Below, piece by piece: positions 489-3,539 of a stretch of DNA of 64,000 nucleotides. The position numbers were made by a program, and so were the translations under genes. The stretch comes from Agrobacterium larrymoorei. Lineage in GTDB: Bacteria > Pseudomonadota > Alphaproteobacteria > Rhizobiales > Rhizobiaceae. The stretch covers positions 62,001-126,000 of the forward strand of contig NZ_JAAMFB010000016.1 in NCBI RefSeq assembly GCF_013322225.1, read 5' to 3'. The first letter of the stretch is position 1; the number at the start of each line of letters is the position of its first letter. The notes beneath the pieces are model-generated. The model was not told the DNA's origin. It saw only the letters and a program-made list of their open reading frames with translations, and did not search any database.

Positions 489-2318
489 TCAAACCGCCTC
501 GGTTGCAGCAATTAACCACTCCTGCACACCCGCAACGGAAATCAGCGGCATCAGCTTTTCACGCACGGTCGCATGGTAGTCGTTCAGCCACTGCCGCTCG
601 TCCTCGCTCAGCAGCGCAACGACGACCAGACGGCGGTCGATGGGGCACCAGGTCAGTGTTTCGAACGAAAGCATCGGCTGATCGCCACCTTCGATTGCCT
701 CAGCCTCCCGCACATAAATCAGGTTCTCGATACGAATTCCGAATTCACCAGGGCGGTAGTAGCCGGGCTCATTGGACAGGATCATTCCCGGTAGTATTTC
801 CTGCTGCGAAACGCGGGAGATACGCTGCGGCCCCTCATGCACAGAGAGATAGGAGCCGACGCCATGGCCGGTGCCGTGGCCGTAATCGGCCCCTGCTTTC
901 CACAGCGCAATTCGAGCCAGCGGATCGAGGTCGCAGCCTCTGGTTCCCTTTGGAAAACGTGCTGCACTAATGCCGATCACGCCTTTCAGGACCAGCGTAA
1001 AGAAACGCTTCTGTTCCTCGGGCACATTGCCGATGGCGACCGTGCGGGTGATGTCCGTGGTGCCGTTGACATATTGCGCGCCGGAATCGACGAGGAACAT
1101 CTCACCGTCTTTCAGCACGCGGTCGCTTTCCGTCGTCACACGATAGTGGATGATTGCTGCGTTCTCACCGGCACCGGAAATCGTATCGAAGGAAATGTCC
1201 TTAAGCGGGTTTTGCATCGCCTGCCCTACCCGCGCGCGAACCTCTTCAAGCGCCTTCACGGCCTGAATTTCGGTGACGCTGCCCGGTTGCTGGCCGTCCA
1301 GCCAGGCGAGATATTCCACCATCGCCGCGCCGTCCTGAACATGTGCGGCAGCGGAACCGGCAATCTCCGCCTCGTTTTTGCAGGCGCGCGGCAGCTTGAC
1401 CGGATCGGTCGCCTCGATCACCTCTCCACCAGCGTCCTTAATGACCCGCGTCAGGGCAACCGGCACGACATCGACATCCGCAAGGATCTTGCCGCCCTTT
1501 TCCGCGATGAGGCGAAGACGCAGTTCGATATCACTCGGTGCGTATTGCGTCGCCAGCGGGGCGAGATATTCGGCTGCCTCTGAACCGATCTTGCGCTTAT
1601 CGAGAAACAGCTCAGCTTCGCCATTCGCGTGAATGATGGCCCGCGCCAGCGGATGCGGTGTGTGTGGCACGTCATTGCCGCGGATGTTGAAAATCCAGGC
1701 GATGGAGGATGGATCGGCAATCAGCACGGCATCGGCGTTGCGCAGCGTCACGATCTGCCCAACCGTGTCGATCTTTTGCCGCGCGGCATGTCCGGTAAAG
1801 GCACCCGGCTGAATGCTGATGGGCTCGAGAGGTTCAACCGGGCGCCCCTCCCATAAAGGATCTAGCGGATTGCTGGCCAGAAGCACGACCGCGCCATTTT
1901 TGGGTGAAAGTGCCTTTTCAAACCGCGCCAGCTCGGCGCTGGTATGCAGCCACGGATCGATGCCAAGCCGGAAACCGTCCGGCGCATTGTCAGCAAGCCA
2001 TTTTGCAGGCGGAGCGCCGACCAGATCACCGCCAGTAAAAACGGTTTGATCCACCTGCGAGGCAAGCTGGGTGGTGTAGCGACCATCAACGAATACGATA
2101 GCCTGGGAGCGCGTGACCAGCACGACCCCGGCAGACCCCGTAAAACCGCTTAGCCACGCCATCCGCTCGGCACATTCGGGCACATACTCGCCCTGATATT
2201 CGTCGGCACGCGGCACGAGAAAGCCATCGATGCGAAGCGCATCGAACGTGCTCCTCAGTGCCTCGACACGTGCTTTGCCGAATTGCGGGGTAGACTTGTT
2301 TTCGAAGGTCTGGAACAT
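489..2318 (-). CDS. pepP: Xaa-Pro aminopeptidase (aminopeptidase P, M24B)
   Basis: A 609-residue cytoplasmic metallopeptidase that removes an N-terminal residue preceding proline. It has the long three-domain layout: two creatinase-type N domains (about residues 10-310), a pita-bread catalytic domain, and a C-terminal extension. The two-metal site is complete: Asp in LVDSGAQYVNGTTDITR (both Asp), His in GTGHGVGSYLSVHEGP, Glu in SNEPGYYRPGEFGIRIEN (both Glu). The reading frame stays open for 49 more codons upstream, but the ATG at 2318 is followed at once by conserved sequence (FETF-type start, then KARVEALR) and has a GGAAAG ribosome site, so I start there. Confidence 0.93.
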   Translation of the reverse strand: MFQTFENKSTPQFGKARVEALRSTFDALRIDGFLVPRADEYQGEYVPECAERMAWLSGFTGSAGVVLVTRSQAIVFVDGRYTTQLASQVDQTVFTGGDLVGAPPAKWLADNAPDGFRLGIDPWLHTSAELARFEKALSPKNGAVVLLASNPLDPLWEGRPVEPLEPISIQPGAFTGHAARQKIDTVGQIVTLRNADAVLIADPSSIAWIFNIRGNDVPHTPHPLARAIIHANGEAELFLDKRKIGSEAAEYLAPLATQYAPSDIELRLRLIAEKGGKILADVDVVPVALTRVIKDAGGEVIEATDPVKLPRACKNEAEIAGSAAAHVQDGAAMVEYLAWLDGQQPGSVTEIQAVKALEEVRARVGQAMQNPLKDISFDTISGAGENAAIIHYRVTTESDRVLKDGEMFLVDSGAQYVNGTTDITRTVAIGNVPEEQKRFFTLVLKGVIGISAARFPKGTRGCDLDPLARIALWKAGADYGHGTGHGVGSYLSVHEGPQRISRVSQQEILPGMILSNEPGYYRPGEFGIRIENLIYVREAEAIEGGDQPMLSFETLTWCPIDRRLVVVALLSEDERQWLNDYHATVREKLMPLISVAGVQEWLIAATEAV

Positions 2319-2573
2319 GACATGCTTTCCGAAAGAACTGATTTGTGGCGGACCATAACGCGTCATGAAGCCCGAGGTCCAGATGAAAGAACCCTCTCCT
2401 GACGCCGCACAATTTTCAGGCAAGATGACGTAAATCAGCGTGTAGACGACAGTCGATATGCGCATCGCGCATATCTATGATGCGAGCAACCCACTACCGG
2501 AATGACCCATCTCGATCTATATCTGCGTCATCGAAAGGGCGACGAAACGCCCTGAGAAACAAGGATTAGAACA

Positions 2574-2747
2574 ATGGCTAAGTCGATTTTCCGCACAGCT
2601 TTGGATCGTGTCATCGCAGCACGCCAGCATCAGGCAGATCGTTATGTCAGCGGCGCAATGCTGAGCCTCGACGATCAGGCGATCGCAGCGCTTGGCACAA
2701 CCCGCGAAGAACTTCGCCGCAAGGCGAAATCCAGCTACGCGTTCTGA
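2574..2747 (+). CDS. Small conserved-looking rhizobial protein, 57 aa, unknown function
   Basis: A 57-codon gene starting ATG with a well-placed AAGGA site 8 bases upstream. The product starts MAKSIFRTALDRVIAARQ and ends KAKSSYAF; it is basic, probably two short helices with a conserved-looking YVSGAMLSLDD link, and has no signal or membrane segment. Composition matches the neighbours and the layout (short, basic, aromatic C terminus) resembles small stress-type proteins of rhizobia, but I cannot name a function. It is divergent from pepP. Its stop lies two bases before the first hairpin of a putative small RNA, whose promoter may sit inside the gene's last codons. Confidence 0.65.
   Translation: MAKSIFRTALDRVIAARQHQADRYVSGAMLSLDDQAIAALGTTREELRRKAKSSYAF
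2712..2740 (+). promoter_or_regulatory. Possible promoter for the small RNA, inside the end of the 57-aa gene
   Basis: CTTCGC at 2712-2717 and CTACGC at 2735-2740 are separated by exactly 17 bases and place a start near base 2747, at the foot of the first RNA hairpin. The match to the rhizobial housekeeping consensus (CTTGAC, CTATAT) is only partial, so this is tentative; the RNA could instead be processed from the upstream mRNA. Confidence 0.3.
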
Positions 2748-2884
2748 GCATTGCCGGGGCGGAACTCCTCCCTCCACCGTTCTGGCAATGGAATGCGTTG
2801 ACCCGCTTGAGCAGCTCCTCCCACAGCTCGCGGGTTCGGTCATCCAGACCGATCGAGAAGGCGGCGCGCAAGCGTCGCCTTTTT
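2748..2884 (+). ncRNA. Putative trans-acting small RNA with two anti-Shine-Dalgarno loops (alpha-r14/NfeR1-like)
   Basis: Three consecutive stem-loops fill the gap between the 57-aa gene and the peroxiredoxin gene. Hairpin 1 (2749-2790) pairs 14 bases, three of them G-U, around a 14-base loop; hairpin 2 (2801-2835) pairs 6+4 bases with a 2-base bulge around a 13-base loop. Both loops display the identical 8-mer CTCCTCCC (2765-2772 and 2815-2822), the complement of a ribosome-binding site. Hairpin 3 is a GCAA-tetraloop terminator. This architecture matches what is known of the alpha-r14 family of rhizobial small RNAs (NfeR1 in Sinorhizobium), which expose anti-Shine-Dalgarno motifs in loops to repress transporter mRNAs. 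Family assignment is by structure, not by alignment. Confidence 0.72.
2858..2884 (+). terminator. Rho-independent terminator of the small RNA
   Basis: Ten-base stem AAGGCGGCGC / GCGTCGCCTT with one G-T pair, a GCAA tetraloop, and a following run of Ts. It is one of the cleanest intrinsic terminators in the window and fixes the 3' end of the putative small RNA. Confidence 0.85.
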
Positions 2885-2994
2885 CGTTTCGGTCCATCAG
2901 TGATACGTAGACACAACTCATCGCCAGCTTCCCATATCTCTTACAGAGGCTCAGTGCGCAGCCGAATTCTGCGTGTTCACGCTGCCGAAAACAG

Positions 2995-3024
2995 CTTCAC
3001 ACTTTTCCGTCTGATGCTCTATAG
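2995..3024 (+). promoter_or_regulatory. Candidate sigma-70 promoter of the peroxiredoxin gene
   Basis: CTTCAC (2995-3000) and CTATAG (3019-3024) with an 18-base spacer resemble the rhizobial housekeeping promoter and would start transcription about 23 bases before the peroxiredoxin ATG. It lies after the small-RNA terminator, so the gene needs its own promoter here. Confidence 0.5.
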
Positions 3025-3053
3025 TCGCGCGATCATTGCCACAGGAGCGATTA

Positions 3054-3539
3054 ATGACCATCAAGATCGGCGACAAACTTCCTTCCGCAACCTTCAAGGA
3101 AAAAACTGCGGACGGCCCTGTCGAAACCACGACTGACCAGCTTTTCAACGGCAAAAAAGTCGTCGTCTTCGCAGTTCCAGGTGCTTTCACGCCCACTTGC
3201 TCGCTGAATCATCTTCCAGGTTACCTCGAAAACCGCGACGCGATTCTGGGTCGCGGTGTCGATGACATCGCAGTCATCTCCGTGAATGACTGGCATGTGA
3301 TGGGTGCCTGGGCGGAGTCCTCCGGCGGACAAGGGAAAATTCACTTTCTCGCAGACTGGGATGCATCCTTTACAAAGGCACTAGGTCTCGATGCAGACCT
3401 TTCCGCTGGCGGCCTCGGTGTGCGCTCCAAGCGTTATTCCATGGTGGTAGAAGACGGCGTTGTGAAATCCTTGAATGTCGAGGACAACCCCGGCCAAGCC
3501 ACCGTTTCATCGGCAGCCACCATCCTGGAACAGCTTTGA
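3054..3539 (+). CDS. Peroxiredoxin, Prx5/AhpE-type redoxin
   Basis: A 161-residue cytoplasmic thiol peroxidase reducing hydroperoxides. The active-site stretch VPGAFTPTCSLNHLPGY places the peroxidatic cysteine at residue 49 within the P-x-x-x-T-x-x-C signature. It is the only cysteine in the protein, so a second resolving thiol must come from glutathione, glutaredoxin or thioredoxin, as in 1-Cys Prx5 members. The start at MTIKIGDKLP has CAGGAG 7 bases upstream; the open frame extends six codons further but without support. It stands alone, with its own promoter and a hairpin after the stop. Confidence 0.92.
   Translation: MTIKIGDKLPSATFKEKTADGPVETTTDQLFNGKKVVVFAVPGAFTPTCSLNHLPGYLENRDAILGRGVDDIAVISVNDWHVMGAWAESSGGQGKIHFLADWDASFTKALGLDADLSAGGLGVRSKRYSMVVEDGVVKSLNVEDNPGQATVSSAATILEQL

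Follow-up and report, generated by a model that had tools for sequence, protein, structure and literature searches.

The window, which is the whole 64,000-nt stretch of DNA analysed here (G000:C1:62001-126000, from a 4.85-Mb genome), contains a small open reading frame (ORF) and a series of stem-loops flanked by an M24 peptidase gene (489-2465, minus strand) and a Redoxin-family gene (3036-3539, plus strand). The features of this interval, each with its basis in parentheses, are as follows:

2459-2482, plus strand: LsrB/VtlR-type box TGCG-N6-GCAT with a conserved right side of C, then TG (core and extended form across loci)
2517-2522, plus strand: putative -10-like element CTATAT, with a predicted transcription start near 2529
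2537-2552, plus strand: predicted 5' UTR hairpin GGGCG-ACGAAA-CGCCC (many relatives look similar by eye, with other stem letters)
2561-2565, plus strand: ribosome site AAGGA of the ORF (sequence)
2574-2747, plus strand: gene for a DUF1127-like small protein of 57 aa (conservation, dN/dS, hhalign)
2737-2746, plus strand: 5' strand of stem P0, inside the end of the ORF and including the stop codon (shuffle test)
2749-2790, plus strand: hairpin 1 (HP1), 14-bp stem and 14-nt loop AACTCCTCCCTCCA (fold)
2765-2772, plus strand: first anti-Shine-Dalgarno (aSD) seed CTCCTCCC, in the HP1 loop (sequence, conservation)
2789-2798, plus strand: 3' strand of stem P0, directly past HP1 (shuffle test)
2801-2835, plus strand: hairpin 2 (HP2), 13-nt loop AGCTCCTCCCACA between GAGC and GCTC (pattern, covariation)
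2815-2822, plus strand: second aSD seed CTCCTCCC, in the HP2 loop (sequence, conservation)
2837-2851, plus strand: small hairpin, missing from many same-genus relatives (fold)
2858-2884, plus strand: intrinsic terminator with GCAA loop and T5 (fold)

A first-pass annotation of this DNA had described three stem-loops, and all of them are present, with the loop sizes it gave (14 and 13 bases) and the GCAA-loop terminator. The identical 8-mer that it placed in both loops was likewise recovered, unpaired in the minimum free energy (MFE) and the centroid structure. This 8-mer occurs exactly twice in 2400-2900 and, across the genome, 63 times on the forward and 70 times on the reverse strand, and by our own arithmetic about 0.05 pairs within 60 nt are expected by chance per strand. 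The MFE of 2740-2895 is -73.2 kcal/mol as compared with -55.3 (sd 3.8) for shuffled sequences (z -4.73), and none of 200 dinucleotide shuffles was as good. A simple scan for terminators came up empty over 2380-3060; the likely reason is that it prolongs the terminator stem via A-T pairs into the T run.

The Redoxin-family gene occupies the place of a convergent ORF of approximately 300 aa, which we take to be PrmA, pointing to a local rearrangement. Since all 11 of the other listed loci have this ORF, with a similar ending, instead, a specific link of the locus to the peroxiredoxin gene was ruled out.

A conserved small protein gene and its upstream box

Of 25 same-genus genomes, 19 encode the 57-aa protein, as do two of 16 others of the order, and its profile has matches in 193 of the 297 family genomes. 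Its 57 genus-assigned loci include Agrobacterium, Neorhizobium, Rhizobium, Ciceribacter and Pseudorhizobium, with Xaviernesmea, Hoeflea, Nitratireductor and Mesorhizobium as further genera. Among 55 sequences the median dN/dS is 0.22, computed from 1277 of 1485 pairs after restriction to a pS of 0.05 to 0.7. Against the other 54 sequences, the window gene has a raw pN/pS of 0.41; synonymous sites in this comparison are probably close to saturated. Judged from these ratios, the ORF evolves as a protein under purifying selection.

Seven of the 57 residues are arginine, and the protein has no Pfam or NCBIfam match. It is not among the 13 matches of the genome to the DUF1127 model (PF06568; curated cut-off 23.3 bits) up to an E value of 10, and 21 of its relatives gave no match to this model up to an E value of 5. 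Filing under Pfam DUF1127 was ruled out by this failure of the model. An hhalign run against 29 DUF1127 proteins taken from relatives gave 85% and an E value of 6e-6 (single comparison) over 26 columns, which is profile-profile homology and not a Pfam criterion, and it is on this comparison that we call the protein DUF1127-like.

Loci were compared after dropping 10 identical copies from 78, leaving 68. The box core TGC-N7-GCA lies 135 to 85 nt before the start codon in 66 of these (all except L043 and L109), and the extended box (core, then C and TG) is present in 63. No extended box occurred at 55 control sites, which are ATGs after two strong ribosome-site patterns (36 of them open an ORF of 80 aa or longer) and were searched over a slightly narrower span (-150 to -60) than the loci (-165 to -60). 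The family search gave 28 additional loci, from which copies of the first set were not removed; 22 of them have the box and five an HP2-like stem. Elsewhere in the genome, the extended box precedes the first of its own abcR genes (abcR1, at -71) and two of its four ar14 copies (at -66). Short DUF1127 genes have it in only five of 26 cases, with the palindrome within 200 nt in 24 of 26.

The regulator LsrB binds TGCA-N6-GCAT of the NfeR1 promoter and acts directly on nfeR1, as described in section 5 of PMC10746234. VtlR, the same regulator, is described as binding the abcR1, atu1667 and vrsA promoters in Agrobacterium tumefaciens (PMC7486931), and direct activation of abcR1 by LsrB/VtlR is reported in PMC8844928 and PMC7486931. 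The published VtlR consensus reads GCAT-N3-TG-N3-T, as against GCAT-N3-TA-N3-T at the box in the window. From the likeness of these boxes we infer that LsrB drives the locus.

The first-pass annotation had suggested that transcription might begin within the small gene. The conserved box and the -10-like element are instead upstream of the ORF, and a consensus promoter scan listed no plus-strand promoter-like site inside it, so that an internal promoter is not supported. In the same scan a site at 2453-2481 that overlaps the box was listed, and CTATAT was not.

Hairpins, exposed motifs and a stem across the stop codon

HP2 was matched by pattern in 47 of the 68 loci, always including the 19 same-genus ones; 21 lack it by this pattern, four of which (L043, L078, L095 and L112) still have CCTCC motifs. 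All counts for HP1, HP2 and P0 refer to the 47 HP2-bearing loci. In the HP2 alignment (47 rows, 34 distinct), 97.9% of cells are paired, 11 cells are changed on both sides and the covariation score is 0.127 as compared with 0.072, values that none of 500 shuffles reached, and slid controls pair at 14-48%. Two of the five measures are weak, the number of pairs changed on both sides being matched by 11 and that of further pair types by 61 of the 500 shuffles, and six of the 10 pairs are invariant. HP1 alone folds barely above chance (median z -1.6; z < -2 in 17 of 47 loci) and its stems vary by lineage. Variable stems with constant loops have been described for ar14 and cuckoo RNAs (PMC10746234; PMC3927594, section 2.7). 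Conservation and covariation together rule out chance hairpins.

An exposed aSD motif 5' of HP2, between the stop codon and HP2, is present in 44 of the 47 loci under a lenient pattern that admits TCTCCC, and in 18 of the 19 same-genus loci (all except L040). In all 44 it is mostly unpaired (above 0.8), with a mean of 0.977 as compared with 0.611 when the flanks are shuffled letter by letter, and in just 19 of 44 is it enclosed in more pairs than in 95% of shuffles. The copy scored in L060 and L091 is the one at the stop codon and not that in the hairpin loop; these two loci carry an additional CTCCTCCCC at the ORF stop codon beyond the hairpin copies. The exact 8-mer precedes HP2 in 22 of 47 loci, lies in HP2 in 33 and is found in both places in 12. 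The core TCCTCC occupies both places in 37, and the full 9-mer CCUCCUCCC occurs before HP2 in seven and in HP2 in four. No aSD motif is present in the loci of Hoeflea, Nitratireductor and Mesorhizobium or in several others, which carry the ORF and in most cases also the box.

Two elements, the small hairpin at 2837-2851 and stem P0, are absent from the first-pass annotation. The last codons of the ORF including its stop codon (2737-2746) pair with 2789-2798 past HP1, and this stem outperforms letter-by-letter shuffles of the downstream segment in 43 of the 47 loci (P<0.05), 31 of which also pass P<0.01, counts that are not independent because the loci are related (18 share one identical strand pair). 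The two strands show matching changes, with ACGCGTTC/GAATGCGT here, ACGTATTC/GAATACGT in many loci and CGTGTTC/GAACACG in L063 and L068. P0 could keep the ORF and the RNA joined rather than release the RNA. An overlap of the RNA with the small gene, hinted at earlier, is thus borne out by a stem that takes in the stop codon, and not by an internal promoter.

Relation to known anti-Shine-Dalgarno RNAs

At gathering scores, Rfam gave no match in the whole window. With relaxed thresholds, ar14 (RF02344) aligned over its full length at 19.2 bits, as compared with a cut-off of 58.8, which makes the locus the fifth-best ar14 match of the genome; the next scores are 15.4 and twice 14.0 bits. Four copies elsewhere in the genome exceed the cut-off at 117.3, 114.8, 109.8 and 106.1 bits (on C19, C51, C57 and C28, respectively). 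Membership in ar14, for which the first-pass annotation had named the Rfam model as the check, was ruled out by this score and by the four true copies. What holds of the proposed likeness to ar14/NfeR1 are the aSD loops, the terminator and a plausible role in blocking ribosome sites, and two rather than three aSD hairpins were found, as had been claimed. Among 20 related loci two matched ar14 up to an E value of 1, both below the cut-off (L068, 27.4 bits; L148, 39.3 bits). L148, from genome G100, encodes the same small protein, carries a third aSD motif in its terminator loop and scores 22.3 bits with CcsR1, likewise below the cut-off. It is a possible link between the ar14 and CcsR types.

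Beyond the aSD loops, the locus and ar14/NfeR1 share a box of the form TGC(A/G)-N6-GCAT approximately 70 nt before the predicted start and presumably the blocking of ribosome sites. However, NfeR1 is described with three hairpins each bearing CCUCCUCCC (PMC10746234), whereas the locus has two, in which CUCCUCCC is preceded by A in one and by G in the other. In ar14 an LsrB-type box and a sigma-70 promoter are located directly 5' of the RNA; here a box and a -10-like element are present and lie 5' of the ORF. A discrete Hfq-independent RNA of approximately 123 nt is characteristic of ar14. The RNA of the locus is attached to the ORF.

By analogy, the nearest published model of the locus is the ccaF1-CcsR1-4 operon of Rhodobacter sphaeroides, which, like the CIN1 and cuckoo RNAs, is described with a short DUF1127 or DUF1127-like gene followed on the same strand by aSD-loop hairpins and a terminator. 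In Rhodobacter, RNase E is reported to cut the precursor into a DUF1127 mRNA and aSD RNAs (PMC10253847). Constant loops on variable stems are a further likeness to CIN1 and cuckoo (PMC10253847, PMC10746234). The CcsR1 model (RF02791, cut-off 65.3 bits) gave no match in 2540-3060 up to an E value of 10. The gene adjacent to CIN1/cuckoo is a short DUF1127 gene (PMC10253847); the adjacent 57-aa gene of the locus is related to DUF1127 only by profile-profile comparison. Cuckoo RNAs are described with two, three or four adjacent CCUCCUCCC-loop hairpins (PMC3927594, section 2.7), and the locus has two, with eight of the nine letters. Finally, ccaF1-CcsR has a published RpoHI/RpoHII promoter and CCUCCUCCC loops, in contrast to the LsrB-type box, the CUCCUCCC loops and the P0 stem reaching into the ORF found here.

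A closer match than the window locus to ccaF1-CcsR was found on another contig of the same genome (C57:201733-202117; L045, L011), where a true DUF1127 gene (C57:201733-201840) directly precedes an ar14 copy, forming a canonical-looking DUF1127 and aSD-RNA locus. In this ar14 copy an extra CCTCCTCCC hairpin precedes the part matched by Rfam. A single CCTCCC also lies in the 3' UTR of each of two more short DUF1127 genes of the genome, L046 (C11:2656-2760) and L044 (C11:3245-3355), predicted to be unpaired in L046 and mostly paired with a GAGG in L044. In two relatives, L150 (G316) and L154 (G262), the 57-aa gene is followed by a diverged second copy, which starts approximately 390 nt after the first.

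The 8-nt seed CUCCUCCC is also identical to that in a hairpin loop of AbcR1/AbcR2 (PMC8844928), and the first of the two abcR genes of the genome (C1:236858 and C1:237061) has the identical extended box. The ar15 model (RF02345) matched the genome twice up to an E value of 0.1, neither time at the locus, and had no match in 2540-3060 up to an E value of 10. The A. tumefaciens gene atu1667 resembles the 57-aa gene as a small-protein gene reported to be directly activated by VtlR (PMC7486931). It is, however, another gene, as its Brucella orthologues are described as DUF1127 genes (PMC12595884), whereas the window protein fails the DUF1127 model. The locus could correspond to the VtlR-dependent RNA of approximately 225 nt between atu0985 and atu0986, for which PMC7486931 reports no upstream box. 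A literature search over titles and abstract openings returned no description of the locus, and an earlier one may exist in the cuckoo, CcaF1 or Eisfeld et al. LsrB-RNA papers.

Candidate targets and a proposed dual transcript

In Sinorhizobium meliloti AbcR1/2, which are described as silencing mRNAs for transport and metabolism, CUCCUCCC is the aSD1 loop motif (PMC8844928). In the genome, GGGAGGAG-N2-10-ATG occurs 34 times, as compared with six for the reversed pattern. Genes for ABC/TRAP transporters account for 10 of 22 ORFs behind GGGAGGAG (L182, L183, L184, L186, L188, L190, L193, L196, L197 and L201) and for one of 14 behind TAAGGAGA, a difference of modest significance (one-sided Fisher P 0.016) against a control that is one arbitrary pattern. 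In this comparison 30 of the 34 sites had loci, 22 of the 30 with an ORF of 80 aa or longer, as did 14 of 25 in the control. The enrichment fits any RNA with a CUCCUCCC seed and not the RNA of the window alone; AbcR1 and the four ar14 copies of the genome have an identical or almost identical seed, and the targets are not specific.

We propose that a LysR-type regulator of the LsrB/VtlR kind would turn on a single transcript of approximately 356 nt, predicted to run from near 2529 to 2884, the 5' part of which would be the mRNA of the 57-aa DUF1127-like protein. The 3' part, which begins in the final codons of the ORF and includes the terminator, would fold into two hairpins each exposing CUCCUCCC, and the acting form may be the intact mRNA or, more likely, a piece of approximately 140-150 nt cut near the stop codon. 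This RNA would pair with GGGAGGAG-like ribosome sites, chiefly those of transporter genes, and block their translation. We consider this proposal as a whole, a regulated transcript that is both mRNA and aSD RNA acting in trans, to be reasonably probable. What the analysis demonstrates is the anatomy of the locus, its conservation and covariation, the coding constraint and the box; the regulator, the start site, processing, the targets and action in trans belong to the proposal. The locus itself is real and conserved and is probably functional; an aSD RNA joined to a small protein is of a known kind, and the variant arrangement is new.

If the hairpins instead belonged to a free-standing small RNA of the ar14/NfeR1 type, transcribed from a separate promoter within an incidental ORF or at its end, the aSD loops, the full-length though weak ar14 alignment and the 39.3 bits of the relative L148 would be accounted for. 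We regard this as improbable, since the score in the window is just 19.2 bits with four true copies elsewhere, the box and -10-like element precede an ORF that has no plus-strand promoter-like site listed, the ORF is under purifying selection and P0 needs the end of the ORF. A role in cis only, in which the 3' UTR protects the mRNA and ends transcription, P0 tunes translation or decay and the loops have no targets in trans, would suit the inclusion of the stop codon in P0 in most of the 47 loci, as well as the loci that lack aSD hairpins and retain the ORF, often with a terminator-like end. Yet the loop motif is kept although HP1 stems differ by lineage, a pure 3' end would not need it, and it equals the working seed of AbcR1/2 (PMC8844928), making this explanation rather unlikely.

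The hairpins might also be a binding site of the small protein, which would mature or store the RNA as CcaF1 does with CcsR, the main output being feedback. Both the published CcaF1 model (PMC10253847) and the DUF1127-like profile match are consistent with such a role, but many loci have the protein without hairpins, and DUF1127 proteins of Agrobacterium and Escherichia coli are reported to bind the kinase PhoR (PMC12501420), so that we give it only a slim chance. An extension of the proposed dual transcript is that translation gates it: the terminating ribosome would open or close P0 and thereby decide whether the seeds are presented or released, and the small protein would bind its own tail. 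This we put forward as a speculative possibility. If it were true, one LsrB/VtlR target would be protein and RNA at once.

In rhizobia, Agrobacterium and Brucella, LsrB/VtlR acts via small RNAs as well as small DUF1127 genes, and for atu1667 the authors left open, in their account of the gene, whether protein or RNA carries the function (PMC7486931). Both Rfam ar14 and Pfam DUF1127 overlook a locus such as the one described here. It seems to unite a small protein and an aSD RNA in one conserved unit with a structure across the stop codon, and the question of protein or RNA function could therefore be addressed in it by separate mutations of the ORF and the loops.
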